DNA from: Planctomycetes bacterium GWF2_41_51 | GTDB taxonomy: Bacteria > Planctomycetota > Phycisphaerae > Sedimentisphaerales > UBA12454 | Length of the DNA stretch: 37,892 bases | Assembly (NCBI GenBank): GCA_001825665.1 | Contig: MHXZ01000091.1 | Location: 1-37,892, forward strand | Reading direction: 5' to 3' | Part shown: positions 8,836 through 29,430 of the stretch, piece by piece | How the letters are laid out: every line of letters begins with the position of its first letter | Position numbering within the stretch: position 1 is the first letter of the stretch | Made by a program: the position numbers and the translations under genes | The notes under the pieces: generated by a model | What the model saw: only the letters and a program-made list of their open reading frames with translations | What the model was told of the DNA's origin: nothing | Database searches by the model: none

Positions 8836-9792
8836 TTAAAAAACTGGTTCAACGCTTCCATCTTCATTGACAATTGCAAGAATTACACGTTGTGAACTTA
8901 GATTCTGAACTTTGATATATTCGCCTGCTCGTCCTTCCTGCAAAGTTTTTCCCATCGCAGTAACTAAAAGTCCGAGTCTGTCAACTTTGATAAGAACATT
9001 CTGGTTGCGTTTGAGTATTATTTCAGGTTTGACCGGTTCTGCCATACCCATTGAAATTTCGGTATTCGCAGGCACAGGTCTTTTTACCGCAAGTCCGTAT
9101 GGAACCGCCCAATTTGCCGGTTCAGGATTATTTGATACTGTATTTTCTACTCTGACGTTTTCAGAACTTATGATTGCTCCTGCCGGAATATCAACCGTTG
9201 TTACCGCTTTTCGGCAGTTGTATTTTAAAATAAATGCTGCTTCTCTTGAACCGGCTTCTTGCTCACCTGAAAATACAGTAACTATTACATTTGCCTGATT
9301 TTTTATATTGCTTTCAGCAAGTTTTGCCTCCAGCCTTATATCTCCGTTTGCCTCTTGGAGGATTAAATCCGCCGGCGCTCTGACAGCATTGTACTTGCAT
9401 ACAGATTCATGTGGAGGATTTTCTGTGAGGTATGAAATTGCAGCTTCGAGGAATTTTTCACCATTAATAATTTGATGCTGCTGAGAAACGGTTACTTCTT
9501 CAGCGCCTGTTAAGGTAACTTCAGATGCCGGAATTCCGCTGCATGCCAATCTGCTCAGCACGATTGAACGGTTGAGCGTTATCTTTTGCCCCGGCGATGA
9601 AAATTGTCCAAGTGTTACTTGTTCCGCTATGGTTGCCAGTGATTCTTTGCCGCGTATTATGGCAACCTGTCCCAGATTTGGCGATGCGCTGTTAATTGTT
9701 ACCTCTCTCGGTAAATAAATCTGCAAAGCACTTTCAGCCTTGCAGTTTATTGATATAATCGCCAGAACAATTATAACTATTATATTTCTCAT
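8836..9792 (-). CDS. flgA: P-ring assembly chaperone FlgA
   Basis: FlgA is a periplasmic chaperone that helps FlgI polymerise. The likely start is the ATG at 9792 (AAAGAG 6 bases upstream). In-frame alternatives are an ATG at 9798 and a GTG at 9813, the last overlapping the flgG stop. The product (~318 residues) has a signal peptide (MRNIIVIIVLAIISINCKAES), a beta-rich N-terminal part and a C-terminal SAF domain: IPAGAIISSENVRVE, then AVKRPVPANTEIS and IKVDRLGLLVTAMGKTLQEG, with the FlgA ending IKVQNLSSQRVILAIV. It sits in the common order flgF-flgG-flgA-flgH-flgI. Confidence 0.93.
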   Translation of the reverse strand: MRNIIVIIVLAIISINCKAESALQIYLPREVTINSASPNLGQVAIIRGKESLATIAEQVTLGQFSSPGQKITLNRSIVLSRLACSGIPASEVTLTGAEEVTVSQQHQIINGEKFLEAAISYLTENPPHESVCKYNAVRAPADLILQEANGDIRLEAKLAESNIKNQANVIVTVFSGEQEAGSREAAFILKYNCRKAVTTVDIPAGAIISSENVRVENTVSNNPEPANWAVPYGLAVKRPVPANTEISMGMAEPVKPEIILKRNQNVLIKVDRLGLLVTAMGKTLQEGRAGEYIKVQNLSSQRVILAIVNEDGSVEPVF

Positions 9793-9805
9793 AATCATCT
9801 CTTTA

Positions 9806-10591
9806 CTAAACACTTGCTATTTGTATTGAGTTGCGAAGCATATCATCGCCTGCTTTTATTGTACGCGAATTAACTTCGTATGCTCTTTGAGCCGTGATAA
9901 GGTTTACCAGTTCCGTTACCATTTGAACATTTGACTTTTCCAGAAACGATGCCTGTATAGTGCCGAAACCGTCTGCTCCCGGCGTACCTGTCGTAGCTGT
10001 TCCGCTCGCTTCGGTATCGGACAACAGGTTATCCCCATCGCTCGACAAGCCCGATGGATTCGTAAATCTCGCCAATTGAATCGTTCCTATGATAGTAGTC
10101 CCTGAATTGGTTGTTACATTGACTCCGCCGTCTGGTGCGATGGAAATATTAGTAGCTCCGGTTGGAACTGTTATTGCAGGTTCAATCAGGTATCCGGTCG
10201 TTGTTACAAGCTGACCGTCCGGCCCCAATTGCAGCGCACCGTCACGAGTATATTTGATTGTCCCATCAGGCATAGTTACCTGCAGAAAACCATCTCCCGA
10301 AATTGCAATATCGAGATTTCTGCCGGTATTGATCAGCTCGCCGTTAGTAAAAACTTTTTGCGTTGCTCCCGCCCGAACACCGCTGCCGACTTCGATTCCG
10401 CTCGGAGCTTTTATGCCCGACGATACTTCTGCGCCTGCTTCTCTCATTTTTATATAAAGCAAATCCTGGAAATCGACCTGACTTCGTTTAAAGCCCGATG
10501 TATTGATGTTGGCAAGATTGTTTGCCGTAACGTCAACCATCATCTGCTGTGCGCTCATACCTGTCGCCGCGGTTGAAAATGCTCTTAACAT
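9806..10591 (-). CDS. flgG: Flagellar distal rod protein FlgG
   Basis: FlgG builds the distal rod that spans the periplasm. The 261-residue product has the expected length and the family signatures: MLRAFSTAATGMSAQQMMVD then VTANNLANINTSGFKRSQVD at the N-terminus, the central GDGFLQVTMPDGTIKYTRDG, and the C-terminal NVQMVTELVNLITAQRAYEV followed by NSRTIKAGDDMLRNSIQI. A strong AAGGAG ribosome site lies before the ATG. It follows flgF by 34 bases and precedes flgA with a short or no gap. Confidence 0.97.
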   Translation of the reverse strand: MLRAFSTAATGMSAQQMMVDVTANNLANINTSGFKRSQVDFQDLLYIKMREAGAEVSSGIKAPSGIEVGSGVRAGATQKVFTNGELINTGRNLDIAISGDGFLQVTMPDGTIKYTRDGALQLGPDGQLVTTTGYLIEPAITVPTGATNISIAPDGGVNVTTNSGTTIIGTIQLARFTNPSGLSSDGDNLLSDTEASGTATTGTPGADGFGTIQASFLEKSNVQMVTELVNLITAQRAYEVNSRTIKAGDDMLRNSIQIASV

Positions 10592-15215: not shown

Positions 15216-15231
15216 AGCAATTATCGTGCCA
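15216..15231 (-). promoter_or_regulatory. sigma-54 promoter of the flgD hook operon
   Basis: On the minus strand this reads TGGCACGATAATTGCT, a complete match to the consensus TGGCACR-N4-TTGCW with correct 10-base spacing between GG and GC. RNA would start near 15205, about 50 bases before flgD. It fits the NtrC-like activators encoded on the opposite strand just beyond the gap. Confidence 0.9.
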
Positions 15232-15691: not shown

Positions 15692-17113
15692 ATGGATGTG
15701 CAGCGGATGATATTGAACAATGTGGTAACTGTTGGCAGGGAGTTGCAGGTCCATCAATTGGCGCGCCAGGTTGGCAGGGAAATTTTTTCCGCAGACGATA
15801 TTACGGAAGCTTTAGACATCGTTGCAAGGGAGAATCCCGATTTAATTATTTTCGATTACAGATTTTCTCCCGCTGATATTAAAAAATTTCTTAACTCTCT
15901 TGACAAAAATTCACAAATCGTCATCGCGGCAGTTGGAAATGATGGAGCACAAAAATATTCTTCCCAGCAGTTCTCCGATGCTGGTGTAAATCATTATCTG
16001 CCCGGCAGTCAGGACTATCATAAACTTATCGAGATCGTAAAAAAAATGCAGCGGCAATCCGAACCCGATGTGAATAATTTCTTTGCTGATGAAATTGCAG
16101 CTTCAGTCTGTATGGTCGGGAAAAGCGCCTCCGCTTTGCATACTCTCAAGATGATTAAGCTTGTCGCCGAAAGCCGGTGCAATCCAGTTCTGATAATTGG
16201 CGAAACCGGAACAGGCAAAGAAGTGGCCGCAAAAGCGGTTCATAATCTCCGCCATTCTGCAAGGCCTTTTGTTGCCGTTAACTGTGCCGCTTTAACTGCC
16301 AATCTGCTTGAAAGCGAGCTTTTCGGCCACGTAAAAGGTTCTTTTACAAGTGCCGACCGCGAAAAAACAGGGCTTATGGAATTGGCCGCCGATGGAACAA
16401 TTTTCCTCGACGAAATTAGTGAAATGCCCCTCGATTTACAGTCCAAACTTCTTCGCGTTGTTCAGGAAAAAACTTTCCGCAAAGTCGGCGGTACAGAGGA
16501 GCTGCATTGCAAAGCCACTATAATCGCTTCCAGCAATCGCGACCTTGCCCTCGAAGTGCAGGCCAAACGTTTTCGTGCCGACCTTTACTATCGTCTGGAT
16601 GTTTGCCCGATTATGATTTCCCCTCTCAGGTCTCCCGAACGAAAACAGGACATTCCGCTCTTGGCCGAATTTTTCCTCAAAACTTCAACTATATGCCCGC
16701 AAAAAGCGGGTAAAATCACTTCGATAACCAAAATTGCTCTCGAATCATTGCTGCAGTATGACTGGTCAGGCAATGTTCGCCAGCTTCGCAATATCATCGA
16801 CAGGGCGGTTCTGCTCGAATCAACTGACAAAATCGGATTGAGCAGTATTGTCATAGATTCCTGGAAATTTAATCAATTCTCCGTTAATTCTGAATCGGAA
16901 AAAATAAAAGATTTCTCATTGGATAAAGCCGAGCGGCAGTTGATAGCGCGTGCCTTGCAGGAAACACATTGGCAAAAGACAAAAGCCGCAGACCTTCTCG
17001 GTATCAGCAGGGCGACTCTCTATGCGAAAGTAAAGCAGCATAGCATTGAATGCCTCGAATCAGATGCCGAAGAATCCTCATCGCTTTCAAAGGCTGAATC
17101 TGCCGCAGTTTGA
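15692..17113 (+). CDS. NtrC-family sigma-54 activator with degenerate receiver and altered GAFTGA loop
   Basis: This 473-residue protein has a receiver-like N-terminus (~8-125), an AAA+ sigma-54 interaction domain (~140-365) and a Fis-type helix-turn-helix (~410-455, [19 protein letters not shown]). The Walker A is intact (GETGTGKE, 170-177), as is Walker B (FLDEIS). The sigma-54-contact loop, normally GAFTGA, reads GSFTSA (216-221). The receiver keeps an Asp at the phospho site (D55) but lacks the acidic pair after strand 1 (VVTVGREL) and the conserved Lys of strand 5, so classical phosphorylation is unlikely. It probably controls the flagellar sigma-54 promoters on either side, in the manner of FlrA/FleQ or FlgR. 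The ATG at 15692 lacks a ribosome site. The ATG at 15707 has GGATG 9 bases before it and is an alternative start. Confidence 0.9.
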
Positions 17114-17264: not shown

Positions 17265-17280
17265 TGGCACAATTATTGCA
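17265..17280 (+). promoter_or_regulatory. sigma-54 promoter of the rightward motor/export operon
   Basis: The sequence TGGCACAATTATTGCA matches TGGCACR-N4-TTGCW completely, with 10 bases between GG and GC. RNA should start near 17291, some 60 bases before the ATG at 17350. It lies in the 236-base gap after the first NtrC-like gene and appears to drive the operon carrying a second activator, fliL, fliM, fliN, flhA and fliA. Confidence 0.9.
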
Positions 17281-17349: not shown

Positions 17350-19971
17350 ATGACAGATGAAAATCAAAAAAATGACTTGGGGGATTTGAGTCGCAACTGG
17401 CATGAAAGACTCATTCAGCTCCGTTTTGCCATGGCAAAAAATTACGGAGCAAACTCACTTCCGCAACCCCCGCAATCCGCCTCAGTCATGGATATTCCGC
17501 CTGATAACGAGCTTTTTACAGTTCCTGTTATCGAAGAACCTTCCGCAGAGCAGCTTTTTGCTGGAGATGAGAGTTTCTATAAAAATCTCGAAACTGCTCG
17601 CCCAAATCCCGCTGCACCAGTCAATCCTGTCAATCCCGCCATTCCTGTCAATACTGTGCCGCCTCAGGCCAATGTTATCGAACAAATGTTGATTTCTCAA
17701 CATCGGCAAAGATTCTTTTCTCCTATCCAGATTGTTCTTGCCGCTGCGATTTTGCTCATTGCCGCTATGCTTCTTTATGTTTTTTTCATTCCTTCTTCTG
17801 TTTCAGTTCCGAAAAATGATGCCCAAACCGCATCAAATATTCAGCCTGCAAACCCGCAGCAATCAGCAATTGAAACCGCCTCTGTAGTTCCGCAAAAGCA
17901 AATGCAATCTCAGCCGCAGGTTGTTTTAGCCCAGCCTTTTTCTTTGAAAGTCGCACAGACCTTATATCTCAATGAAGATTATAAAGGTGCGTTAGAAGCC
18001 TATGGCAAATTGTACGATAATCTTTCGACCAGTGCCAAAGAAGATTTGATGAGAGATTATCTTCAGCTTCAGATGGCCTTGTGTATGGAAAGAGCCGCAG
18101 ATTACAACCAGGCTTCTCTTGCTTTTAGAAAAGTTTTAAATAGTGGTTCTCCTGCTGTAAGGGCTGTTGCATTTTATCATTGCGGACTGCTCGAAATGCA
18201 GAAGAAACAATTCCTTAACGCCCGCACAAAAGCGTATCAGGCACTCGCCCTGATTGACGCCGTAGATTTTGACAAAGAATGGACACGTTCATTGAAACGT
18301 GATTGTTCTTTCCTTGCCGCGCAGTCTCTGACAAGAGAAGTTTTATCGCTTTGCGATGGCGATAAAGACCTGCCCGAAAATGTTTGGCCTCAGTTCGGAG
18401 CCGCCGATGATATCTTCCTTAATATAGATGAAACTCAATTAAGAGTTTTTCTCAATTCAGGCATACAGCACCTCAATGTCGCTGTCCTGACGCCCCAAAT
18501 TAAAAAATTTGATAATCATAATGGAACTGATGTTTATAATATTACGTGCAGCGGTGCTTCAATTGAAGAGCTGCTTTCGAGATTTGCCGCCAATGCCGGC
18601 ATGGATTCTCAATGGCATTTAGGCAATAATGATGCGGTTAGAAAACGGCTTGTCAGTCTGCACCTTCTTTCCGCGGCGGCCCATCAGTTTTCTGCCATAG
18701 CCGCAGGTTCCGCGGGTCTGGTCGCACAGATAGATAGTAATTCAGTATTGAATATTTACAATCCTGTCGGTTATTCGAACACATCGCAGTACCTTTCAAT
18801 GCTCAGCGAAGAAGCCGTTACCATTTGGCAGGAATTTATGCTCAGGTTCCCCGAAGACCCGCGGCTGGCCGGTGCTCATTTCGCACTTGCTCTCCTGTAC
18901 GTTCCGCAGGAACACTACACACAGGCTATTGCCGAATATAAATTGGTTGCCAATGGTTTTACCGTTTCTAAATTGGCCCCTTATGCTCTGCTTAATTCGA
19001 GCAGAATGAAAAACAAACTTCAGGATTTTGTCGGCGCTTACGAAGATTTAAAACAGCTCGTCGAGCAGTTCCCCGATTCACAAACCGCCGCCGATGCCTA
19101 TCTTTCTTATGCTGAAACCGCCGGAAAGGCGAATCTGCTCGAGGAATCCATAAAGCTTTATAATAAGGTTTATACCCTTTGTTTGTCGCCGGAAACACAA
19201 ATAGCCGCAGCTCTCGGCGCAGGGAAAATCTCGTACCAATTAAAGGATTACAAAACAGCCGAAAAATGGCTGATACAATATACAAACCTTGCCGCCTCAA
19301 AGCCCACACAGGATTTATATTTAAGTTATCTCTATCTCGGCAAAACCTATTTGGCAATGAACAATACTGACGCCGCCTGTAAGGCTTTTCAATATGCGCT
19401 GCTCGGCGTTCCCTTGTATTTGCCGAAAAGCGAATATATTAATATTATTCCGTCATTAGTTGAAGTTTATATCAGGCAGGAAAGTTTCGTCCAGGCTCTC
19501 GAATTATTGGAAGCCGTTAATTCTCCTGCATTGTCATTAAGAGAATCTGTTGAGGTCTTAATTCTAAAAAGTACAGTTTTGCGTGCGATGGGTTTGGTTG
19601 ATAAGGCACTGATAGTTCTCGGCGACCGGGCCGAATATATGCCCGATTCGCAATTAAAAGCCCAGATTTATTATCAGGTTAGCGAGTGTTACATTGAAAA
19701 AGGTGAATTAGGTATCGCTCATAAAATGCTTTCAGATATTCTCGTTCTCACTCAGCCCGGTCCTTTTATGCACAAGGCCGCGCTCAGATTGGCCGAGGTC
19801 TGCTTGAAACTTGATAAAAGTTTTCAGACAGTATCTCTTTGCAGGCAGCTTTTGGATTTACAGCCTTCCAGCGATGTAAAACAAAAAGCGCTCGAATATC
19901 TTGCCGCCGCTTATAATCAAAATGAAAATTATGACAAAGCCGCTTTGGCTCTGCTGGGACAATGGAAATAA
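17350..19971 (+). CDS. Large membrane-anchored TPR protein with STN-like module, candidate motor scaffold
   Basis: This 873-residue protein leads the sigma-54-driven operon before fliL-fliM-fliN-flhA. Layout: cytoplasmic N-terminus (~1-120) with a Pro/Asn-rich stretch (NPAAPVNPVNPAIPVN, ~83-98); one transmembrane helix (~125-148, IQIVLAAAILLIAAMLLYVF); then a long periplasmic part. The periplasmic part has TPR units near ~195-310, an STN-like segment (~395-470: YNITCSGASIEELLSRFAAN ... SLHLLSAAAHQFSAIAAGSA ... SNSVLNIYNP) and many TPR units to the end. STN modules normally sit at the N-terminus of secretins and TonB receptors, so their presence between TPR blocks is odd. Periplasmic TPR proteins PflA/PflB organise stators in Campylobacter. 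By analogy this may be a motor or disk scaffold, but no direct homology was tested. No clear ribosome site is seen. Confidence 0.75.
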   Translation: MTDENQKNDLGDLSRNWHERLIQLRFAMAKNYGANSLPQPPQSASVMDIPPDNELFTVPVIEEPSAEQLFAGDESFYKNLETARPNPAAPVNPVNPAIPVNTVPPQANVIEQMLISQHRQRFFSPIQIVLAAAILLIAAMLLYVFFIPSSVSVPKNDAQTASNIQPANPQQSAIETASVVPQKQMQSQPQVVLAQPFSLKVAQTLYLNEDYKGALEAYGKLYDNLSTSAKEDLMRDYLQLQMALCMERAADYNQASLAFRKVLNSGSPAVRAVAFYHCGLLEMQKKQFLNARTKAYQALALIDAVDFDKEWTRSLKRDCSFLAAQSLTREVLSLCDGDKDLPENVWPQFGAADDIFLNIDETQLRVFLNSGIQHLNVAVLTPQIKKFDNHNGTDVYNITCSGASIEELLSRFAANAGMDSQWHLGNNDAVRKRLVSLHLLSAAAHQFSAIAAGSAGLVAQIDSNSVLNIYNPVGYSNTSQYLSMLSEEAVTIWQEFMLRFPEDPRLAGAHFALALLYVPQEHYTQAIAEYKLVANGFTVSKLAPYALLNSSRMKNKLQDFVGAYEDLKQLVEQFPDSQTAADAYLSYAETAGKANLLEESIKLYNKVYTLCLSPETQIAAALGAGKISYQLKDYKTAEKWLIQYTNLAASKPTQDLYLSYLYLGKTYLAMNNTDAACKAFQYALLGVPLYLPKSEYINIIPSLVEVYIRQESFVQALELLEAVNSPALSLRESVEVLILKSTVLRAMGLVDKALIVLGDRAEYMPDSQLKAQIYYQVSECYIEKGELGIAHKMLSDILVLTQPGPFMHKAALRLAEVCLKLDKSFQTVSLCRQLLDLQPSSDVKQKALEYLAAAYNQNENYDKAALALLGQWK

Positions 19972-20843
19972 TTAATAATAAAAAACTACGATTGTCATTG
20001 CGAGGAGTTCTAAGAACGACGAAGCAATCTCTGTCTTTGACAGCTTTTCTGCTTTGTATTTTTATTCTTTGCCTGTCAGTTTCTTTCAGTTACGCCAATG
20101 AAGCGTCCGAAGAAATGGATCCTCTTGAATTTATGGCTTCTGAAATATCCGCCATTGATGATGCAAATACCGATTGGCAGCCCGATATGCAGATTGCGGC
20201 ACCTCCTGTCAATAGCTACATTCCTGAAACAATCAATAATGTACCTGTCAATCTCTTGGCAAAAATTGATAATCCGCCTGATTTGCAAACTGATTTGCAG
20301 CAGTTAATCAGCAAGATTTATTCCGTCGAGTTCAAACCGCAGGACTCGGCTCCGGAACCTGCTATTGTTATTCCTCCTGTCGAAAAAGAGGAACTCAAAC
20401 CGGTCGAAGATTCCAAAAAAACTGAAATCATTTCAAATGATTTACTCGCCGCCGGTGCATCTGACGGCAAACAATTATCCGGTAATACCATTCAGCTGCT
20501 TGATGAGCTTTTACTCAACCCCGCCCAGATAGGAAATCCGCTCGAATTAGCCGATATTTTATTCCGTTGCGATAAACTCTCGCAAGCCGCAATTTGTTAC
20601 CGCAGTGCTCTCGACAGGATGACTTCAAATAATAATGTCTCATACAGCATCAAAGCCTGGATTTTATTCCAGATTGGAAATTCGCTGCAAAAGAGCGACC
20701 CCGCAGCAGCGATGGAAAGCTACAAGCAATTGATTGTTGAATTTCCTGATTCGCCATGGACTGAAATAGCGAAAGTAAAAAGCAGTTTGGTTGACTGGTA
20801 TGCAAAAGAAAAACCTGATTCGCTGGTAAAGGAAAAAAAGTGA
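19962..20843 (+). CDS. Secreted TPR-like protein with a repeat element inside its signal region
   Basis: This 293-residue protein starts inside the end of the preceding TPR gene (10-base overlap). Its N-terminus is basic (residues 1-24), then has a hydrophobic core (~25-42, TAFLLCIFILCLSVSFSYA) with likely cleavage after SYA, so it should be periplasmic. The middle is acidic and Pro-rich. The C-terminal ~100 residues look like one or two TPR-type helical hairpins (DKLSQAAICYRSALDRM, DPAAAMESYKQLIVEFPDSP). Residues ~11-25 (LSLRGVLRTTKQSLS) are translated from a palindromic repeat that recurs at two other places in this window, so the n-region is an insertion product. It is probably the partner of the upstream membrane TPR protein. 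Function unknown. Confidence 0.72.
   Translation: MEIINNKKLRLSLRGVLRTTKQSLSLTAFLLCIFILCLSVSFSYANEASEEMDPLEFMASEISAIDDANTDWQPDMQIAAPPVNSYIPETINNVPVNLLAKIDNPPDLQTDLQQLISKIYSVEFKPQDSAPEPAIVIPPVEKEELKPVEDSKKTEIISNDLLAAGASDGKQLSGNTIQLLDELLLNPAQIGNPLELADILFRCDKLSQAAICYRSALDRMTSNNNVSYSIKAWILFQIGNSLQKSDPAAAMESYKQLIVEFPDSPWTEIAKVKSSLVDWYAKEKPDSLVKEKK
19994..20031 (+). repeat. Palindromic repeat, copy A (inside a coding region)
   Basis: The element runs from GTCATTGCGAGGAG to GACGAAGCAATCTC, with terminal inverted ATTGC/GCAAT and an internal GTTCT-A-AGAAC palindrome. It is read in frame as LSLRGVLRTTKQSL within the signal region of the secreted TPR-like protein. Ends match the copies at 26501 and 28178. 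Confidence 0.8.
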
Positions 20844-20863: not shown

Positions 20864-22279
20864 GTGCACAAAAACGTATTGATAGTTGACAGTGACAAGG
20901 AATCGACCCGCTTGATACTCGGGATTTTAGCTCTCAAGGGTATCGGTGCTACGGTTGTCAGCTATGGAAAATCAATTTTTGATTTTCTCGAAAAATCACA
21001 TTACGACCTTGTATTTTGTGTCATTCGTGTAAATCAGCCGCAAAACGATTTGCGTTTGGTTCATGAAATTAAACTCAACTCCCCCGAAATGCCTGTAATT
21101 TCAATTTGTGATTTGCAGGGTCAGCAGTGCGATTCCCCTCAGCAGTTGCTGAACATCGCCGTTAGTGCCGTCAATCTCGGCTGCACTGATTGTTTGATTA
21201 AGCCTCTCGACAGTAAAAAAATTGAAAACCTGTTCGATACTTTACTGCCTAATCATCCGGTTGTCTCCGCAGATTATCAGGACGAATTTAATAACCTCAT
21301 TACGATTGTAGGTAAAAGTTCGAAATTATTGCATACGATTAATTTAGCAAAAAAAATCGCCAACACTTCCGCCCCCGTTTTAATTGGCGGCGAAAGCGGC
21401 ACCGGCAAGGAATTAATCTCGTTTCTCATCCATCGATGCAGCAAAAGAGTCCAGGGTCCGTACATCAGAGTCAATTGTGCGGCACTAACAGATTCTCTGC
21501 TTGAAAGCGAACTTTTCGGCCACGAAAAAGGAGCTTTCACCGGTGCTTATGCCCAGCGTAAAGGCCGTTTCGAAATGGCACATCGCGGAACCTTGCTTCT
21601 CGACGAAATTACTGAAACACCCTTAAAATTCCAGGCAAAACTCCTCCGTGTCCTCGAGCAGCAGGATTTCGAACGTGTCGGCGGAAACGACAGCGTCAAA
21701 GTCGATGTCCGAATAATCAGCACTTCCAACAAAGATTTGCAGACAGAAATCGCCGAAGGCAGATTCCGTCAGGACCTTTACTATCGTCTGTGCGGCCTGC
21801 GTCTGGTTATTCCTCCTCTGCGTCAGCGGCAGGATGATTTGGCCGACCTCGTTTGGCATTTTGTAAATCTTTATTCGCGTCAGGCCCAGCGTTCAATCAC
21901 TCAGCTTGACCCCGCTATGATGAATATTTTCGCACGTTATAATTGGCCCGGCAATATTCGCCAGCTCCGAAATGTTGTTATGACTTCATTGATTCTCGGC
22001 GCAGGTCCTAAATTATCTTTAGCCGATGTCTCATGGCTCTTCGATGAATTGCAGCCTTTAAAACAGGAAAATACTTCCGGCGAAACTCCTGCACCGGCGC
22101 GTTCCGAGTTGACCGGAATGCCTCTCGAAAAAGTTGAACGTCAGGTAATCCTCGAAACTCTCGACAACACCGGCGGCAACCAGACAAAAGCCGCAAAAAT
22201 TTTAGGCATCAGCGACAGAACTTTACGAAGCAAAATCAGGCGTTACTCAAAAACAGACCAGTTGCAGTTGGCGTCATAA
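20864..22279 (+). CDS. NtrC-family sigma-54 activator lacking the phospho-acceptor Asp
   Basis: This 471-residue response-regulator-like protein has a receiver (~4-125), AAA+ domain (~145-385) and Fis-type HTH (~420-465, NQTKAAKILGISDRTLRSKI). Walker A is GESGTGKE (176-183), the sigma-54 loop is a normal GAFTGA (223-228) and Walker B is LLDEITE. The receiver keeps the acidic residues of strand 1 (VDSD, 8-11) and the strand-5 Lys (LIKPLD), but the phospho-Asp position is Val53 (DLVFCVIRV), so it cannot be phosphorylated in the usual way, as in FleQ/FlrA-type master regulators. The start is GTG at 20864 with AAGGA 7 bases before. It sits inside a sigma-54-driven operon, so it may amplify its own expression. 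No histidine kinase gene is nearby. Confidence 0.93.
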   Translation: MHKNVLIVDSDKESTRLILGILALKGIGATVVSYGKSIFDFLEKSHYDLVFCVIRVNQPQNDLRLVHEIKLNSPEMPVISICDLQGQQCDSPQQLLNIAVSAVNLGCTDCLIKPLDSKKIENLFDTLLPNHPVVSADYQDEFNNLITIVGKSSKLLHTINLAKKIANTSAPVLIGGESGTGKELISFLIHRCSKRVQGPYIRVNCAALTDSLLESELFGHEKGAFTGAYAQRKGRFEMAHRGTLLLDEITETPLKFQAKLLRVLEQQDFERVGGNDSVKVDVRIISTSNKDLQTEIAEGRFRQDLYYRLCGLRLVIPPLRQRQDDLADLVWHFVNLYSRQAQRSITQLDPAMMNIFARYNWPGNIRQLRNVVMTSLILGAGPKLSLADVSWLFDELQPLKQENTSGETPAPARSELTGMPLEKVERQVILETLDNTGGNQTKAAKILGISDRTLRSKIRRYSKTDQLQLAS

Positions 22280-22302: not shown

Positions 22303-22902
22303 ATGGCAAAAGAAGAAAAAAAAGCGGAAGATAAAAAACCTGATGATAAGAAGAAGGAAACCGCAAAAACTGAAAAAGGCGAAAAAACTCCTGCCGGCAA
22401 AATCGGACTTATGACTTGGCTGATAGTGGCTGTTGTCGTAATTGTCTTTGCTGGTTCAGGTTTTGTGATTGGCCGTTTGTTAGCCAACCCGCAGCCGCAG
22501 GAAAAAGCCGAGGAAACCGCTGAAACTGCCAAAGTAGAAGATAAAAAATCTGCCGATGCCGTTTCTTCCCCGAATGATACCTGGTATTTCAATGATCTTG
22601 AGTCCGTCGTCGTTAATCCCGACGAACCCGGCGCAACGCGTTATGTCCGCGTTGGGCTTATTTTGGAGATGGGTTCTGAAATTACACAGGACAAAGCTTC
22701 GGGTCTTATTACTGCCAAAAAACCGCTTCTGATTAATTGGCTAAATCTTTATTTCAAAAGCATGACGCTTGGTGAAATGCAGAATGATAGAGATATGAAA
22801 CGTATTTTGACGCAGATATGCGATGCCTTCAATGAAATTCTTTTCCCTGGTCAAAAACCGCATATCAAAAAGATTCTTATCAGGGAATTTAATATACAAT
22901 GA
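22303..22902 (+). CDS. fliL: Flagellar basal-body-associated protein FliL
   Basis: FliL is a single-pass inner-membrane protein next to the stator that supports torque generation. The 199-residue product has a Lys/Glu-rich cytoplasmic tail (~1-33), a transmembrane helix (~38-60, MTWLIVAVVVIVFAGSGFVI), an acidic linker and a periplasmic FliL domain (~90-199) ending RILTQICDAFNEILFPGQ, then IKKILIREFNIQ, which is the typical FliL C-terminus. AAGGT lies before the ATG. The stop overlaps the fliM start by four bases (ATGA). It is placed directly before fliM-fliN as in many bacteria. Confidence 0.93.
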   Translation: MAKEEKKAEDKKPDDKKKETAKTEKGEKTPAGKIGLMTWLIVAVVVIVFAGSGFVIGRLLANPQPQEKAEETAETAKVEDKKSADAVSSPNDTWYFNDLESVVVNPDEPGATRYVRVGLILEMGSEITQDKASGLITAKKPLLINWLNLYFKSMTLGEMQNDRDMKRILTQICDAFNEILFPGQKPHIKKILIREFNIQ

Positions 22903-23846
22903 TTTCAGAGGTAAACAACTTGACTAAAGAAAAAATCCAGCAGCTTCTCGCATCTGTCGGCGTCCAGTCGCATAAAGATGCTGATAAAAATATCGAGACA
23001 TCCGATTATAATTGGCATCTGTCACACTATTTTAATCGTTCTGAGTTGAAAAAAATTGATATTTTTGCTCAGGCTGTCGCGCATAAAATCGCTGCAAATT
23101 TCAGCAGTCTTTATCAAAACAAATTCGATGTTGAGGTCAATTCCATAACACAGCATTTTGCCTCTGAGTTTATGACTTCAGATATTAAGGAAAATTATTT
23201 TCTCGCTTTCGGCAGTGCAGACCAGGTTTTCGGATTAATTGACATTCCTAACCAGCCTGCTATTCTCTGGTCAACTCAACTGCTTGGCGATACCAAAGCC
23301 GACAGCAATACCCCGAGAAAATTATCTCAATTAGAGGAATCTCTTTTATTCGATATCGCCTCTTCAATCATAAATGCCTATTCGGTTTCTTCACCCGATG
23401 AATTGACTCCGACTGGAGAAATTGCCTGCGGCCGTATGCCCGTGGAAATCGACATGATGCGGGAAGTTTGCAAAATCGCATTCACATTTAAGCAGGCAAA
23501 CAGTGACCAGGTTTCACAGGCTTGTTTATGGGTTTTCAGCGATGTTATTCAGTCTGTTGCGGGGAAAGCTGCTAAAGCTGAAAACATTCCGCAGCAGAAC
23601 ATCTCAAAAGCCATGCTGAATCATTTTATGGCTATGCCGCTTGATGTTACTGTTAGTTTATCGAATGTCAGATTTAATTTCCAGCAGGTTATGGATATCC
23701 AGCCCGGCGACATAATTGTTTTAGACAAGAACGTTAATGAATCCGCCGATTTGATTATCGATAATAATGTTTTACTTCGTGGAAAACCTGCGAAATCAAA
23801 TGGAAAATATTCGGTGGTAGTTACCGAATTATGCAATAGAAAATAA
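22899..23846 (+). CDS. fliM: Flagellar switch protein FliM (divergent)
   Basis: FliM is the middle C-ring protein that binds CheY-P and sets rotation direction. The 315-residue product begins with a CheY-binding-like helix LTKEKIQQLLASVG (residues 8-21; family form LSQxEIDALL), followed by the FliM middle domain (~40-220, HYFNRSELKKIDIFAQAVAH) and a C-terminal SpoA domain (~235-310, LDVTVSLSNVRFNFQQVMDI then QPGDIIVLDK). The usual GGxG motif of the middle domain is not seen; LLGDTK stands where it would be expected. It is co-translated with fliL and followed by fliN. Length is normal. The unusual middle domain and the missing GGxG make it a divergent member. Confidence 0.88.
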   Translation: MISEVNNLTKEKIQQLLASVGVQSHKDADKNIETSDYNWHLSHYFNRSELKKIDIFAQAVAHKIAANFSSLYQNKFDVEVNSITQHFASEFMTSDIKENYFLAFGSADQVFGLIDIPNQPAILWSTQLLGDTKADSNTPRKLSQLEESLLFDIASSIINAYSVSSPDELTPTGEIACGRMPVEIDMMREVCKIAFTFKQANSDQVSQACLWVFSDVIQSVAGKAAKAENIPQQNISKAMLNHFMAMPLDVTVSLSNVRFNFQQVMDIQPGDIIVLDKNVNESADLIIDNNVLLRGKPAKSNGKYSVVVTELCNRK

Positions 23847-23874: not shown

Positions 23875-24270
23875 ATGGCGGAAACAGCAGTTGAAGAGCA
23901 GGTACAGCAGCAAACAGAACCTGCCCAGGATGATTCTAAAGCACAGGTTAAATCGGTCGAATTCCCGCAGGCACCGGATGATTCATCCGCAGGTCCCGGT
24001 TCGAGCCTTGATATTCTGCTCGATATGGAAGTGCCGGTTTCTGTTGTCATCGGAAAAATGAATATCCCCGTGCAAAGATTCCTCCAGCTCGGCCCAGGCT
24101 CGGTATTGAAATTGGAAAAACCGATTGAATCGCCGGCCGATTTATATCTCAAGGACACGAAATTTGCCGTTGGCAGCATCGTCGTTGTCGATGAGAGGTT
24201 CGCTGTAAGGATTAAGGAAATTCTTGGCTCTGCCGCCGCTGCTTCCGCTCCGCAGGCAAACAAAAAATAA
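23875..24270 (+). CDS. fliN: Flagellar switch protein FliN
   Basis: FliN forms the base of the C-ring and helps dock the export ATPase complex. This 131-residue protein has an acidic, Gln-rich N-terminal tail (~1-40) and a SpoA domain (~43-122): LDILLDMEVPVSVVIGKMNI, VQRFLQLGPGSVLKLEKPIE and VGSIVVVDERFAVRIKEIL, a near-complete FliN signature. AAAGGA precedes the ATG. It sits between fliM and flhA. Confidence 0.95.
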   Translation: MAETAVEEQVQQQTEPAQDDSKAQVKSVEFPQAPDDSSAGPGSSLDILLDMEVPVSVVIGKMNIPVQRFLQLGPGSVLKLEKPIESPADLYLKDTKFAVGSIVVVDERFAVRIKEILGSAAAASAPQANKK

Positions 24271-24301: not shown

Positions 24302-26422
24302 ATGGCTGCATCTGATAAAACCGTCTTATCGAACAACCCGAGCTCTCGCAGCAATATTATTTTAGCTGTCGGTCTGGTTACTATCCTCGCGACTTTGCTG
24401 ATACGTATGCCGGAGCCTTTATTGGATATGCTCCTTGCGTGCAGTATATCACTTTCAATCGCTGTTTTAATTATTACAATGTTTTCAAAGGAAGCTCTCG
24501 ATTTATCAACTTTCCCGTCTCTGCTTCTTTTTGTTACTTTGTTCAGACTTTCCCTAAATGTCTCCTCAACAAGATTAATTTTAACACAAGGCAGTGCAGG
24601 CAGAATAATACAAACATTTGGCGACTTTGTCGCAGGCGGAAGTTTCGTTGTCGGTTTGGTTATTTTCCTCATTTTGTTTATTATACAATTCGTCGTGGTT
24701 ACAAAAGGTGCTGAACGTATCAGCGAAGTTTCCGCAAGATTCACTCTCGATGCTATGCCCGGCAAGCAAATGGCCATCGATGCCGACCTTAACGCAGGTG
24801 CTATTACTGAAGCACAGGCAAATGAACGAAGAGCAAAAATTGTCAAGGAAAGTGAATTCTATGGTGCAATGGATGGTGCCAGTAAATTCATTCGAGGCGA
24901 TGCTATTGCAGGCATTATTATCACCGCTATAAATATCATCGGCGGTATCGCAATAGGATATTCCGATGGCATGCCGATTGGCACAGCCCTCAAAACATAT
25001 TCCGTTCTGTCAATCGGTGATGGTCTGGTAAGTCAGATTCCATCGATGATTATTTCTATCAGTTCCGGTTTCTTGGTTACCAAAATTTCTTCGAGCAACA
25101 GCGTCGGCCAGGATTTGTCAAAACAGCTTTTCAAAACCTCACAGCCTTTAACAATTTCTTCCTTCATCATTGCGGCCCTGGCACTTGTTCCGGGTCTGCC
25201 AGCTTTGCCTTTCCTGATTTTAGCCGCAGCCACTGCTTTTACAGGCAGAATGATTGCCAAATCTGAAAAAACCGATGATACAAAGAAATCCGATACCCAG
25301 ATTCAAAAAACCGGCTCAGCAAAACAGCAGCAGCCGATTGAAGAAATGCTCGATGTTGACAGAATTTCTGTTCAGGTCGGTGTACGCCTTATCGGACTGG
25401 TTGATCCCCGCAAAGACAGTACAATTTTTGACCGCATCGGCGCTCTGAGAAGAAAATTCGCTCAGCAGCTTGGAATCGTTATGCCGCTGGTTCGTTTAAG
25501 AGACAACATCAACATCGAATCGAATGAGTACGAAATCAGGCTCTTCGACCATACAGTCGCAAAAGGCCGTTTGGAACCAAATATGTTCCTCGCTATGGAT
25601 TCAGGTGCTTCCCAGGTGAAGATTGATGGAATTAAAACTGCCGAACCGGTCTATGGCCTTCCCGCTTTATGGATTACCGAAGCGAATAAGGAAAAAGCGG
25701 AGATTAATGGTTTTACCGTTATAGACCCCGAATCCGTATTTATCACCCATCTTTCCGAAACTCTTAAAAAGCACGCTGATGAATTATTGACGCGTGAAGA
25801 TGTTCAGCAGCTTGTCAATCGTCTTCGCAAAACTCAGCCTTCGCTTGTCGGTGATATAATAGGGGAGCTTGTGCCGATTGGTACGTTGCAAAGGGTGCTC
25901 AAAAATCTTTTGAAAAATTCAATTCCAATTCGCGAACTGCCTTCCATAATTGAAGCCCTCGGCGAATGTGCCAACAAAACTAAAAATCCTGACATTCTTA
26001 CCGAAGTTGTTCGCAAGCATTTATCCAGGACTATTACTGAGCAATATAAAGACAAGCAGGGCAAGATAATAGCCATAACTCTTGACCCCGCTCTCGAACA
26101 TCAAATGGCACAGAACCTGCGGCAGGAATCTGATTCGCTGAACCTCGCTTTGCCGAGTGAAACCACAATGGCTCTCTGCAACGCCGCCGCAAAAGCATGG
26201 AAATCCGCTATGGATAAAGGTGCTGAAAAATCTATTCTGCTCTGCGATTCCAAATTACGTATGCCTTTATCTTCGCTGCTTGCGCGTTCACTGCCCCAGT
26301 TGCCGGTAATTGCATATAACGAAATTGTACTTGGAACTGATATCGAACCTTTGGATACCATCTCGCTGCAGCAGGGCGTTAAAATACCTCAAAAGCAGGA
26401 ACTTGTCGGAGCCTCAGCTTGA
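24302..26422 (+). CDS. flhA: Flagellar type III export gate protein FlhA
   Basis: FlhA is the large inner-membrane component of the export gate and docks chaperone-substrate complexes. The 706-residue product has about eight transmembrane helices in residues ~20-315, the FHIPEP-family signature around 138-166 (RISEVSARFTLDAMPGKQMA, then IDADLNAGAITEAQANERR), and a cytoplasmic C-terminal half (~345-700) with the conserved NIESNEYEIRLFDHTVAKGR, TVIDPESVFITHLSETLKKH and LVGDIIGELVPIGTLQRVLK. Length is normal. The ribosome site GGAG is somewhat far from the ATG. flhF and flhG, often next to flhA, are absent, and a small membrane gene plus fliA follow. Confidence 0.97.
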   Translation: MAASDKTVLSNNPSSRSNIILAVGLVTILATLLIRMPEPLLDMLLACSISLSIAVLIITMFSKEALDLSTFPSLLLFVTLFRLSLNVSSTRLILTQGSAGRIIQTFGDFVAGGSFVVGLVIFLILFIIQFVVVTKGAERISEVSARFTLDAMPGKQMAIDADLNAGAITEAQANERRAKIVKESEFYGAMDGASKFIRGDAIAGIIITAINIIGGIAIGYSDGMPIGTALKTYSVLSIGDGLVSQIPSMIISISSGFLVTKISSSNSVGQDLSKQLFKTSQPLTISSFIIAALALVPGLPALPFLILAAATAFTGRMIAKSEKTDDTKKSDTQIQKTGSAKQQQPIEEMLDVDRISVQVGVRLIGLVDPRKDSTIFDRIGALRRKFAQQLGIVMPLVRLRDNINIESNEYEIRLFDHTVAKGRLEPNMFLAMDSGASQVKIDGIKTAEPVYGLPALWITEANKEKAEINGFTVIDPESVFITHLSETLKKHADELLTREDVQQLVNRLRKTQPSLVGDIIGELVPIGTLQRVLKNLLKNSIPIRELPSIIEALGECANKTKNPDILTEVVRKHLSRTITEQYKDKQGKIIAITLDPALEHQMAQNLRQESDSLNLALPSETTMALCNAAAKAWKSAMDKGAEKSILLCDSKLRMPLSSLLARSLPQLPVIAYNEIVLGTDIEPLDTISLQQGVKIPQKQELVGASA

Positions 26423-28108: not shown

Positions 28109-28144
28109 TTAATCAGGCCAGTGATTAATATGGAGAAAATAAAA

Positions 28145-28786
28145 ATGAAAACTGAAAAAATTATATCAGCCTTTAATGTCATTGCGAGGAGTCCTGTTGA
28201 GCGAAAGCGAATCAGGACAGAGCCTGCCCCCGCGCAGGCGGGGGAAGCAATCTCAAAGTTTAGAGTTAGGCATAACTTTATATATTCATTTGTTATTATA
28301 TCTTTGACAATGTTTTTATTCACGGGATGTATGCCGAACAAATCATCTGCTGATAATGACATCAGTCCAGCCCCGGCGGCTAATCAGGATATGTCCAAAA
28401 GATTCCAGAACGCTGAAACTGGTGATGCCACAGCCGTTGACTCTGCGATTAAGCTTGCGCAGGATCATGCGATACTTTCCGAAAAAATGACACAGACACA
28501 CCAGCAAAATCAGGAATTAATCGCCGAGAACAATAAACTCAAAGAACGTATCGCCGCTCTTGAACCCGAATTAGCTCAGACAAAGAAGGAACTGGAAGAG
28601 GCAAATACTTTGCTGATTGATATGCGTATAGAAATTAATAATTGGAAAACGGATGTGCTCGGCTTCCGCGACGAACTTCGTCAGGCCGACAAAGCACAGC
28701 TCGAAACACTGCTGAAAATTCTCCAGGTCCTTGGCGGAGAAGTCAATTCCCCGCCGTCTAAGGTTTTGGATGCTAATAAACCCTGA
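28145..28786 (+). CDS. Coiled-coil lipoprotein with a repeat element in its N-terminus
   Basis: I chose the ATG at 28145 because GGAGA lies 8 bases upstream; the next in-frame ATGs at 28121 and 28130 have weaker signals. The ~213-residue product has an unusually long n-region, a hydrophobic helix (IYSFVIISLTMFLFTGC) ending in the lipobox LFTGC, then a long coiled coil (~110-180, ENNKLKERIAALEPELAQTK). It should be anchored to a membrane by lipid on the Cys. Residues ~12-38 (VIARSPVERKRIRTEPAPAQ then AGEAIS) are encoded by a palindromic repeat. It lies at the end of the flagellar operon beside a second lipoprotein, so a link to basal disk or ring structures is possible but not shown. Confidence 0.72.
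   Translation: MKTEKIISAFNVIARSPVERKRIRTEPAPAQAGEAISKFRVRHNFIYSFVIISLTMFLFTGCMPNKSSADNDISPAPAANQDMSKRFQNAETGDATAVDSAIKLAQDHAILSEKMTQTHQQNQELIAENNKLKERIAALEPELAQTKKELEEANTLLIDMRIEINNWKTDVLGFRDELRQADKAQLETLLKILQVLGGEVNSPPSKVLDANKP
28178..28254 (+). repeat. Palindromic repeat, copy C (inside a coding region)
   Basis: This is the longest copy (77 bases), running from GTCATTGCGAGGAG to GGAAGCAATCTC. It contains an inner GTCCTG/CAGGAC inverted pair and a strong CCCCCGC-GCAG-GCGGGGG hairpin (28227-28244). It is read in frame in the lipoprotein gene but in a different frame from copy A (here V-I-A-R, there S-L-R-G). Confidence 0.8.
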
Positions 28787-28803
28787 TTATGATGGTGAAT
28801 AAA

Positions 28804-29430
28804 ATGAAAATTTTTAAATATAGTCTCGTATTGTTGCTTCTGCTTCTCTCTGGCTGCACTGGCAGCAAATCGAAAAAATCCGGCCCCGCCTATTTCTATT
28901 TGAACCAGAACAGAAATTTATCGTCGGTTGGAAGAACCATTTTAGTTGAATTAAGCAACGACTCGGCTTATCCCAAAGTTTCATCTGATGTAACCGATGC
29001 TCTTTATGAAGCGATACAGAAAAAACAGTTATTCGGCATAAATGTCGTCCGCAAAAATGACCCCGCCTGGCGAAATCTCCAGCTTGATAATTTCACAGGC
29101 TATTCACTCGACCAGTTATCGGCCATTCACAAAACTTTGAAGGCCGAAGCCGTGCTGCGGGGAACTATCACAAGATACGAACCTTATCCTCATTTGATTT
29201 TAGGACTCCGTCTCGAACTTCTCGATTTAAAGGATGGCCAATTATTATGGGCCTTGGAACAAATATGGGACGCTGATGATAAAAATACGCAGGACCGTGT
29301 TAAGGATTTTTATGATAAAACTATTATTCCTTTCGGTGACGGTCTCGAAAAAGGTCTTGGCGTTGTAAGCTCCCTGAAATTTTTTAAATTCATCGCTTAT
29401 GAAACTGCTGAAACATTACAACATAAATAG
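28804..29430 (+). CDS. Lipoprotein with LpoB/CsgG/FlgO-like fold, flagellar operon
   Basis: The ATG at 28804 has GGTGA 5 bases upstream and gives a clean signal: MKIFKYSLVLLLLLLSGC with a LLSGC lipobox (Cys18). The mature ~190 residues look like the alpha/beta fold shared by LpoB, CsgG-N and FlgO proteins: ILVELSNDSAYPKVSSDVTD, then AEAVLRGTITRYEPYPHLIL and LRLELLDLKDGQLLWALEQ. FlgO/FlgP/FlgT lipoproteins build extra outer-membrane rings in Vibrio. Position in the flagellar operon fits such a role, but LpoB-like activators of cell-wall synthesis are an alternative. An in-frame ATG at 28789 would add five residues. Confidence 0.72.
   Translation: MKIFKYSLVLLLLLLSGCTGSKSKKSGPAYFYLNQNRNLSSVGRTILVELSNDSAYPKVSSDVTDALYEAIQKKQLFGINVVRKNDPAWRNLQLDNFTGYSLDQLSAIHKTLKAEAVLRGTITRYEPYPHLILGLRLELLDLKDGQLLWALEQIWDADDKNTQDRVKDFYDKTIIPFGDGLEKGLGVVSSLKFFKFIAYETAETLQHK

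Follow-up and report, generated by a model that had tools for sequence, protein, structure and literature searches.

Two overlapping genes in a 37,892-nucleotide stretch of DNA from Planctomycetes bacterium GWF2_41_51 (contig MHXZ01000091.1, positions 1 to 37,892 of the forward strand; hereafter "the window") encode a large membrane-anchored protein with tetratricopeptide repeats (TPRs) and a small secreted TPR protein, and the pair is almost certainly flagellum-specific in a broad sense. By analogy with known motors, we moderately favor the reading that the two proteins form a periplasmic stator or E-ring scaffold working like PflA/PflB, FlcA/FlcB, or MotC/MotK. The tie to the flagellum follows from conserved gene order, σ54 control, co-occurrence, and a gene cluster in Brocadiales; the scaffold reading arises because a PflB-sized membrane TPR arm with a beta element in its middle occurs together with a secreted TPR partner, a FliL encoded in the operon, and an FlbB-like gene beside motAB. 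A flagellar motor scaffold had been proposed earlier from the letters of the window alone (the original prediction); its flagellar part stood, while the placement of stators by the pair is still something that we infer. Periplasmic TPR scaffolds set the number of stators and thereby torque. The rapid divergence of TPR sequences makes the origin of these scaffolds across phyla hard to trace; a handle on it would come from a family that is conserved, has a traceable N0 domain and a small partner, and occurs as a split or fused gene pair in two classes. The family lies in a phylum whose motors appear not yet to have been imaged, none having been found in the literature searched.

Conservation and Distribution of the Gene Pair

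The window genome is a 4.8-Mb assembly from the order Sedimentisphaerales (class Phycisphaerae, phylum Planctomycetota), and the genomes of its relatives are mostly metagenome-assembled. Both open reading frames (ORFs) were confirmed at the positions originally predicted, with an overlap of 10 bp (Table 1). A perfect σ54 site begins 85 bases 5′ of the large gene; a site with at most one mismatch was present within 600 bases 5′ at 27 of 28 homologous loci, the expectation from shuffles, at a looser cut-off of two mismatches, being 4.05 of 28. Another σ54 site lies in the opposite orientation at 15216–15231. The gene order (activator, large gene, small gene, activator, fliL, fliM, fliN, flhA, a gene for 81 aa, and a FliA-type σ factor gene) is kept in most relatives examined, and the small gene adjoins the large gene in all loci examined. 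The pair had been described as opening a σ54 operon that continues into fliL, fliM, fliN, and flhA; the promoter and these genes were found, but an NtrC-type activator gene intervenes before fliL.

Among 59 genomes of the order, the large gene was present in 34 and flhA in 46. Outside one family (f4), 33 genomes carried both genes, 12 carried neither, none carried flhA alone, and the one genome with the large gene alone was 78% complete (Fisher p = 3e-10, not corrected for relatedness). Homologues found mostly in non-flagellated species, which the original prediction had put forward as evidence against itself, were thus not seen, with flhA in 33 of the 34 homologue-bearing genomes. All 13 genomes of family f4 carry flhA and lack the large gene, because their FlhA belongs to another flagellar lineage; in a quick maximum-likelihood tree, FlhA from gene-bearing genomes formed one clade (support 100), and FlhA from f4 grouped with the rest of the Phycisphaerae (support 98). 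By these FlhA sequences, two flagellar lineages coexist in the order, one of which is accompanied by the pair. The occurrence of both within one order (f4 loci L046–L049 versus the window) suggests a replacement, or an old transfer, of a whole flagellar system.

A survey of 292 genomes of the phylum, 183 of which carry flhA, placed the strongest distant homologues in families f49 and f78. Hydrazine synthase alpha was found in 10 of the 12 f49/f78 genomes tested and was absent from the window genome and from 14 of 14 controls; the two families are therefore anammox Brocadiales. Weaker matches elsewhere in the phylum look like generic TPR proteins, and, these aside, the survey found distant homologues in a flagellar context only in Brocadiales. 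When the sequence up to about 10 kb from flhA was searched at four f4 loci and in ten further Planctomycetota, no homologue was found. A single-sequence search of wider genome contigs gave no match; with an alignment of closer members as the query, 30 loci were recovered in these contigs. A common origin of the Sedimentisphaerales and Brocadiales FlhA was neither shown nor rejected (p = 0.17, approximately unbiased test).

Domain Architecture of the Large and Small Proteins

One single-chain model was built per protein. The AlphaFold2 model of the large protein, built from 32 relatives, has a mean predicted local distance difference test (pLDDT) score of 81.9, rising to about 92 over residues 200–870. 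It agrees with the 873-residue, single-pass protein and split TPR solenoid of the original prediction. The cytoplasmic tail is modeled as largely disordered; it contains a short motif, ELF...(hydrophobic)-F-A-G, that is conserved in most homologues and is a possible docking site for a cytoplasmic partner. The membrane helix that follows has a hydropathy of 2.95 over 19 residues, and a comparable helix is present in 31 of 32 homologues, the remaining row (L010) beginning at a contig end. Pfam TPR matches were found in both proteins, above the cut-off for the large protein only, and neither protein has a catalytic or signaling domain according to Pfam and NCBIfam scans.

The core of secretin N0/STN domains runs strand, helix, strand, strand, helix, strand, strand. 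In the model, the beta/alpha module at residues 383–470, which divides the two TPR arrays, shows this order with one extra leading strand. Single-sequence scans gave no direct match of the large protein to the Pfam STN and N0 models (PF07660, PF21305), and profile-profile comparison (hhalign) was therefore used. A profile of the module matched secretin N0 domains of the same order with E = 5e-5 and a probability of 67%; the homologous Brocadiales region matched them with E = 9e-8 and a probability of 94%, and eight column-shuffled controls reached a probability of at most 1.4% and E values no better than 0.036. Single Brocadiales proteins matched Pfam GspD N0 (4.5e-5) and STN (0.0036), both below curated cut-offs, as well as the N-terminal part of the NCBIfam PilQ model (0.001). 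Modeled fold and profile similarity together identify the module as a secretin N0/STN domain, as had been suggested, which is a further hint that secretin or pilus domains were recruited into flagellar scaffolds.

The small protein, originally described as a secreted TPR-like product of an overlapping gene, does have a signal-peptide-like N-terminus and a modeled TPR domain. Its linker varies strongly in length among relatives, and the TPR domain is the conserved part; a fold search with this protein gave nothing significant (best E = 0.008, YbgF). A dispersed palindromic repeat (CATTGCGAG...CGAAGCAATC; 19996–20029, + strand) lies in frame at the start of the small gene, where it adds residues ahead of the signal-peptide core; close relatives do not carry it. 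The repeat pattern occurs in nine copies in the genome, against none for the reversed control, and resembles palindromic elements that are inserted into coding regions of Rickettsia.

A Split Version in Brocadiales

The large protein corresponds in Brocadiales to two nearby genes. The product of the first (240–350 aa) combines a membrane helix with a TPR block; that of the second (570–625 aa) has a signal peptide, the N0 domain, and about ten TPRs. Since this second protein carries a signal peptide, the N0-TPR arm lies outside the inner membrane, and we infer from it on which side of the membrane the parts of the large protein lie. The gene for the small secreted TPR protein comes next, followed by genes for a histidine kinase and an NtrC-type activator and by flgB, flgC, fliE, and fliF; the last-named neighbors were identified by position and sequence, not all being scanned. 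At Brocadiales loci L079, L081–L086, and L088, the module stands between σ54 activators and adjoins flgB-flgC-fliE-fliF.

Comparison of the Sedimentisphaerales and Brocadiales profiles gave E = 2.4e-38 for the C-terminal part against the N0-TPR protein and E = 2.1e-10 for the N-terminal TPR block against the membrane-TPR gene (both hhalign), and E = 9e-16 for the small partner (profile-profile); the similarity rests partly on TPR repeats, which inflate these values. Independent agreement comes from the order of the parts, the membrane helix, the N0 domain, and the neighborhood. A gene pair that is split in some genomes and fused in others is a classical sign of parts that touch or act together, and often means physical contact.

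Candidate Motor Partners Elsewhere in the Genome

In another part of the genome (G000:C124), motA and two MotB genes follow fliF-fliG-fliH-fliI-fliJ; the two MotB-type genes stand in tandem behind the single motA (L091 17494–18969). Between fliJ and motA lies a gene for a 230-aa protein (G000:C124:26026-26718; L091 16026–16718) that has a membrane helix and, in its middle, a coiled-coil-like stretch. Its best NCBIfam match is FlbB, the spirochete collar protein (2.5e-4, below the cut-off), and its C-terminus has a marginal match to the FliG middle domain (0.038). Single-sequence searches found the FlbB-like gene in 34 of 34 gene-bearing genomes and, beyond these, in one incomplete genome; the f4 genomes gave no match. 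FlbB, MotE, and FlgY belong to one family, that of the E-ring protein, which is often encoded beside fliJ (PMC13023049), and the 230-aa protein may be a candidate of this FlbB/MotE/FlgY kind; this identification is only a lead, since MgtE_N, the Pfam model used for FlgY, had no match in the genome at E = 0.1.

Comparison with Known Motor Scaffolds and Alternative Explanations

The closest parallel is the Campylobacter motor, in which spokes built of FlgY dimers and PflA extend from the MS-ring, the membrane-anchored TPR protein PflB forms a rim that holds MotB, and FliL belongs to the assembly (PMC11870540, PMC12222027). PflB, which makes up the rim of the proximal disk in Campylobacter and Helicobacter, has much the same plan as the large protein: about 820–870 aa, a cytoplasmic tail, one transmembrane helix, a beta element that divides the periplasmic TPR array, an association with motor-related genes, and a link to FliL (PMC11870540, PMC12222027). 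The large protein shares the cytoplasmic tail, the single helix, and the periplasmic remainder. However, the beta pair of PflB joins a mid-protein strand to the last C-terminal residues (PMC11870540), whereas the large protein has a complete, self-contained N0 domain, and its model ends in a helix (residues 861–868). PflA, the spoke protein of Campylobacter and Helicobacter, has a signal peptide, an AMIN-like beta sandwich, and then 16–17 TPRs. The second Brocadiales piece has a signal peptide, a beta domain of the secretin/PilQ kind, and a TPR solenoid in the same order, but with N0 in place of AMIN and about ten repeats; in Sedimentisphaerales, the N0-TPR part is instead fused behind a membrane-anchored TPR block, so that the large protein itself does not show the PflA order, and its beta domain matches secretin N0/STN and not the AMIN type. 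The spirochete collar proteins FlcA–FlcD (with FlbB) and the alphaproteobacterial MotC/MotK (with MotE) are likewise periplasmic TPR proteins that work with an E-ring protein (PMC13023049), for which the FlbB-like candidate would be the counterpart here; TPR sequence kinship with these proteins was not found, no direct comparison having been made. PMC11870540 reports a TPR gene close to flagellar genes in about half of flagellated species, most of these genes being PflA-like and lacking PflB features; a TPR protein from another phylum that is anchored in the membrane and carries a beta domain in mid-sequence is therefore a variation on a known theme. Our literature search found nothing on flagellar TPR proteins of Planctomycetota or on STN combined with TPR in flagella; the supplementary tables of PMC11870540 may list some of these genes among the TPR genes close to flagellar ones.

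On the scaffold reading, the pair would supply structural components to one lineage-specific type of flagellar motor. The small secreted protein would bind the periplasmic arm of the large protein, in which a secretin-type N0 domain separates a short TPR block from a solenoid of ten TPRs. The two would most likely make up a rim or spokes surrounding the MS-ring, with an E-ring of the FlbB/FlgY-like candidate on one side and the MotAB stators on the other. FliL, whose gene lies in the operon, would accompany this scaffold, which would hold the stators in position much as PflA/PflB hold them in Campylobacter. It is possible, and we put it forward tentatively, that the large protein unites in one chain a membrane rim piece like PflB and a beta-domain spoke like PflA, built with a secretin N0 domain and complemented by a small dedicated TPR subunit; this would represent a third stator-scaffold architecture, still in separate pieces in anammox bacteria. 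Either descent from PflA/PflB or a separate origin would fit.

Among the best 50 PDB fold matches of the large protein, the only natural bacterial chains were 9hmf_K and 9hmf_L of the Campylobacter motor scaffold, taken from their chain lengths as PflA (rank 26, E = 6e-8, template modeling (TM) scores 0.17/0.19) and PflB (rank 49, E = 3.6e-7, TM 0.21/0.26), respectively. Several observations weigh against a scaffold of the Campylobacter kind. Both chains match weakly (TM 0.17–0.26) and stand among many eukaryotic TPR proteins, and both fell outside the best 50 matches of a second look with VIA-align, all of which were generic TPR; this absence is in itself no evidence against the scaffold. Sequence kinship with PflA/PflB, FlcA/B, or MotC/K was likewise not found, no direct comparison with those sequences having been made; a phmmer search of PDB sequences turned up no informative relative, and the best 60 of 85 matches in a profile search against PDB sequences were generic TPR chains. 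The fold match is that of generic TPR and does not place the pair in the PflA/PflB, FlcA/FlcB, or MotC/MotK families. The missing MgtE_N match counts on the same side, and the flanking activator and kinase genes fit a regulatory role equally well.

A rival reading, which we consider doubtful, makes the pair an assembly factor or checkpoint, with the membrane TPR protein sensing or assisting periplasmic completion of the basal body and signaling through the neighboring σ54 activators (in Brocadiales, also through the adjacent histidine kinase), or chaperoning ring or rod proteins. Activators flank the pair in Sedimentisphaerales, as activators and a kinase do in Brocadiales, the conserved cytoplasmic motif stands before the membrane helix, and TPR proteins are often chaperones; however, activators beside flagellar operons are common, the two proteins lack catalytic and signaling domains, and a structural part accords better with so large a solenoid and with the presence of a second, secreted TPR protein. 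It seems unlikely that the pair belongs to a disc or ring near the outer membrane, with N0 docking on the P/L-ring or an outer-membrane disc, in the manner of FlgP, FlgT, or PflC/PflD, and not on stators. The PilQ match of the Brocadiales N0 domain and the ring-type genes on the other strand of the window (ChapFlgA, 8836–9813) speak for this location, as does the periplasmic role of secretin N0 domains at the base of outer-membrane channels. A general cell-envelope protein of the YbgF/CpoB or BamD type, with an incidental flagellar neighborhood, was already disfavored and is very improbable: YbgF was the best NCBIfam match of the large protein and BamD matched as well, but all of these matches are below cut-off and of the generic repeat kind, and the gene is σ54-controlled, stands in a flagellar context in two classes, and is missing both in family f4, which is flagellated, and in the 12 genomes of the order that lack flhA. 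YbgF/CpoB, BamD, and PilF/PilW share the periplasmic TPR fold with the window proteins, which differ from them in size, context, and partners and fall below the family cut-offs.

Features of the Window

Coordinates of the gene pair, its predicted domains, and its neighbors are given in Table 1. Two further genes at 28121–29430 of the window, encoding a 221-aa coiled-coil-like protein and a 213-aa lipoprotein, neither with a clear family, are kept 3′ of the σ factor gene in most gene-bearing loci examined; they are possibly further motor or envelope parts.

Table 1. Positions of the gene pair, predicted domains, and neighboring genes in the window.
Feature	Coordinates	Strand	Basis
NtrC-type σ54 activator, upstream, conserved neighbor	15692..17113	+	Pfam Sigma54_activat 3e-60; synteny
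σ54 promoter TGGCAC-N5-TTGCA, 5′ of pair	17265..17280	+	exact match; kept at 27/28 homologues
Large gene: membrane-anchored TPR / secretin-N0 / TPR protein, 873 aa	17350..19971	+	ORF; model; 34/59 genomes of order
Conserved cytoplasmic short motif ELF ... LFAG, residues 54–72	17509..17565	+	alignment
Single transmembrane helix, about residues 125–147	17722..17790	+	hydropathy; model helix 125–146
N-terminal TPR block, residues 199–334, seven TPR-like helices (3.5 repeats)	17944..18351	+	model; Brocadiales membrane-TPR match
Predicted secretin N0 / STN domain, about residues 383–471	18496..18762	+	model fold order; profile-profile match
C-terminal TPR solenoid, residues 478–868, 21 helices, about ten repeats	18781..19953	+	model; Pfam TPR; Brocadiales match
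Small gene: secreted partner, 293 aa (signal peptide, low-complexity linker, C-terminal TPR domain)	19962..20843	+	ORF; model
Hydrophobic core of signal peptide, residues 24–42	20031..20087	+	hydropathy; model helix 24–44
TPR domain of small partner, residues 174–291	20481..20834	+	model pLDDT mostly >90; weak Pfam TPR
NtrC-type σ54 activator, downstream, same apparent operon	20864..22279	+	Pfam 1e-66; synteny
FliL	22303..22902	+	Pfam FliL 1.9e-12
FliM	22899..23846	+	Pfam FliMN_C 2.1e-14, FliM 3.5e-4
FliN	23875..24270	+	Pfam FliMN_C 2.6e-21
FlhA	24302..26422	+	Pfam FHIPEP 7e-249

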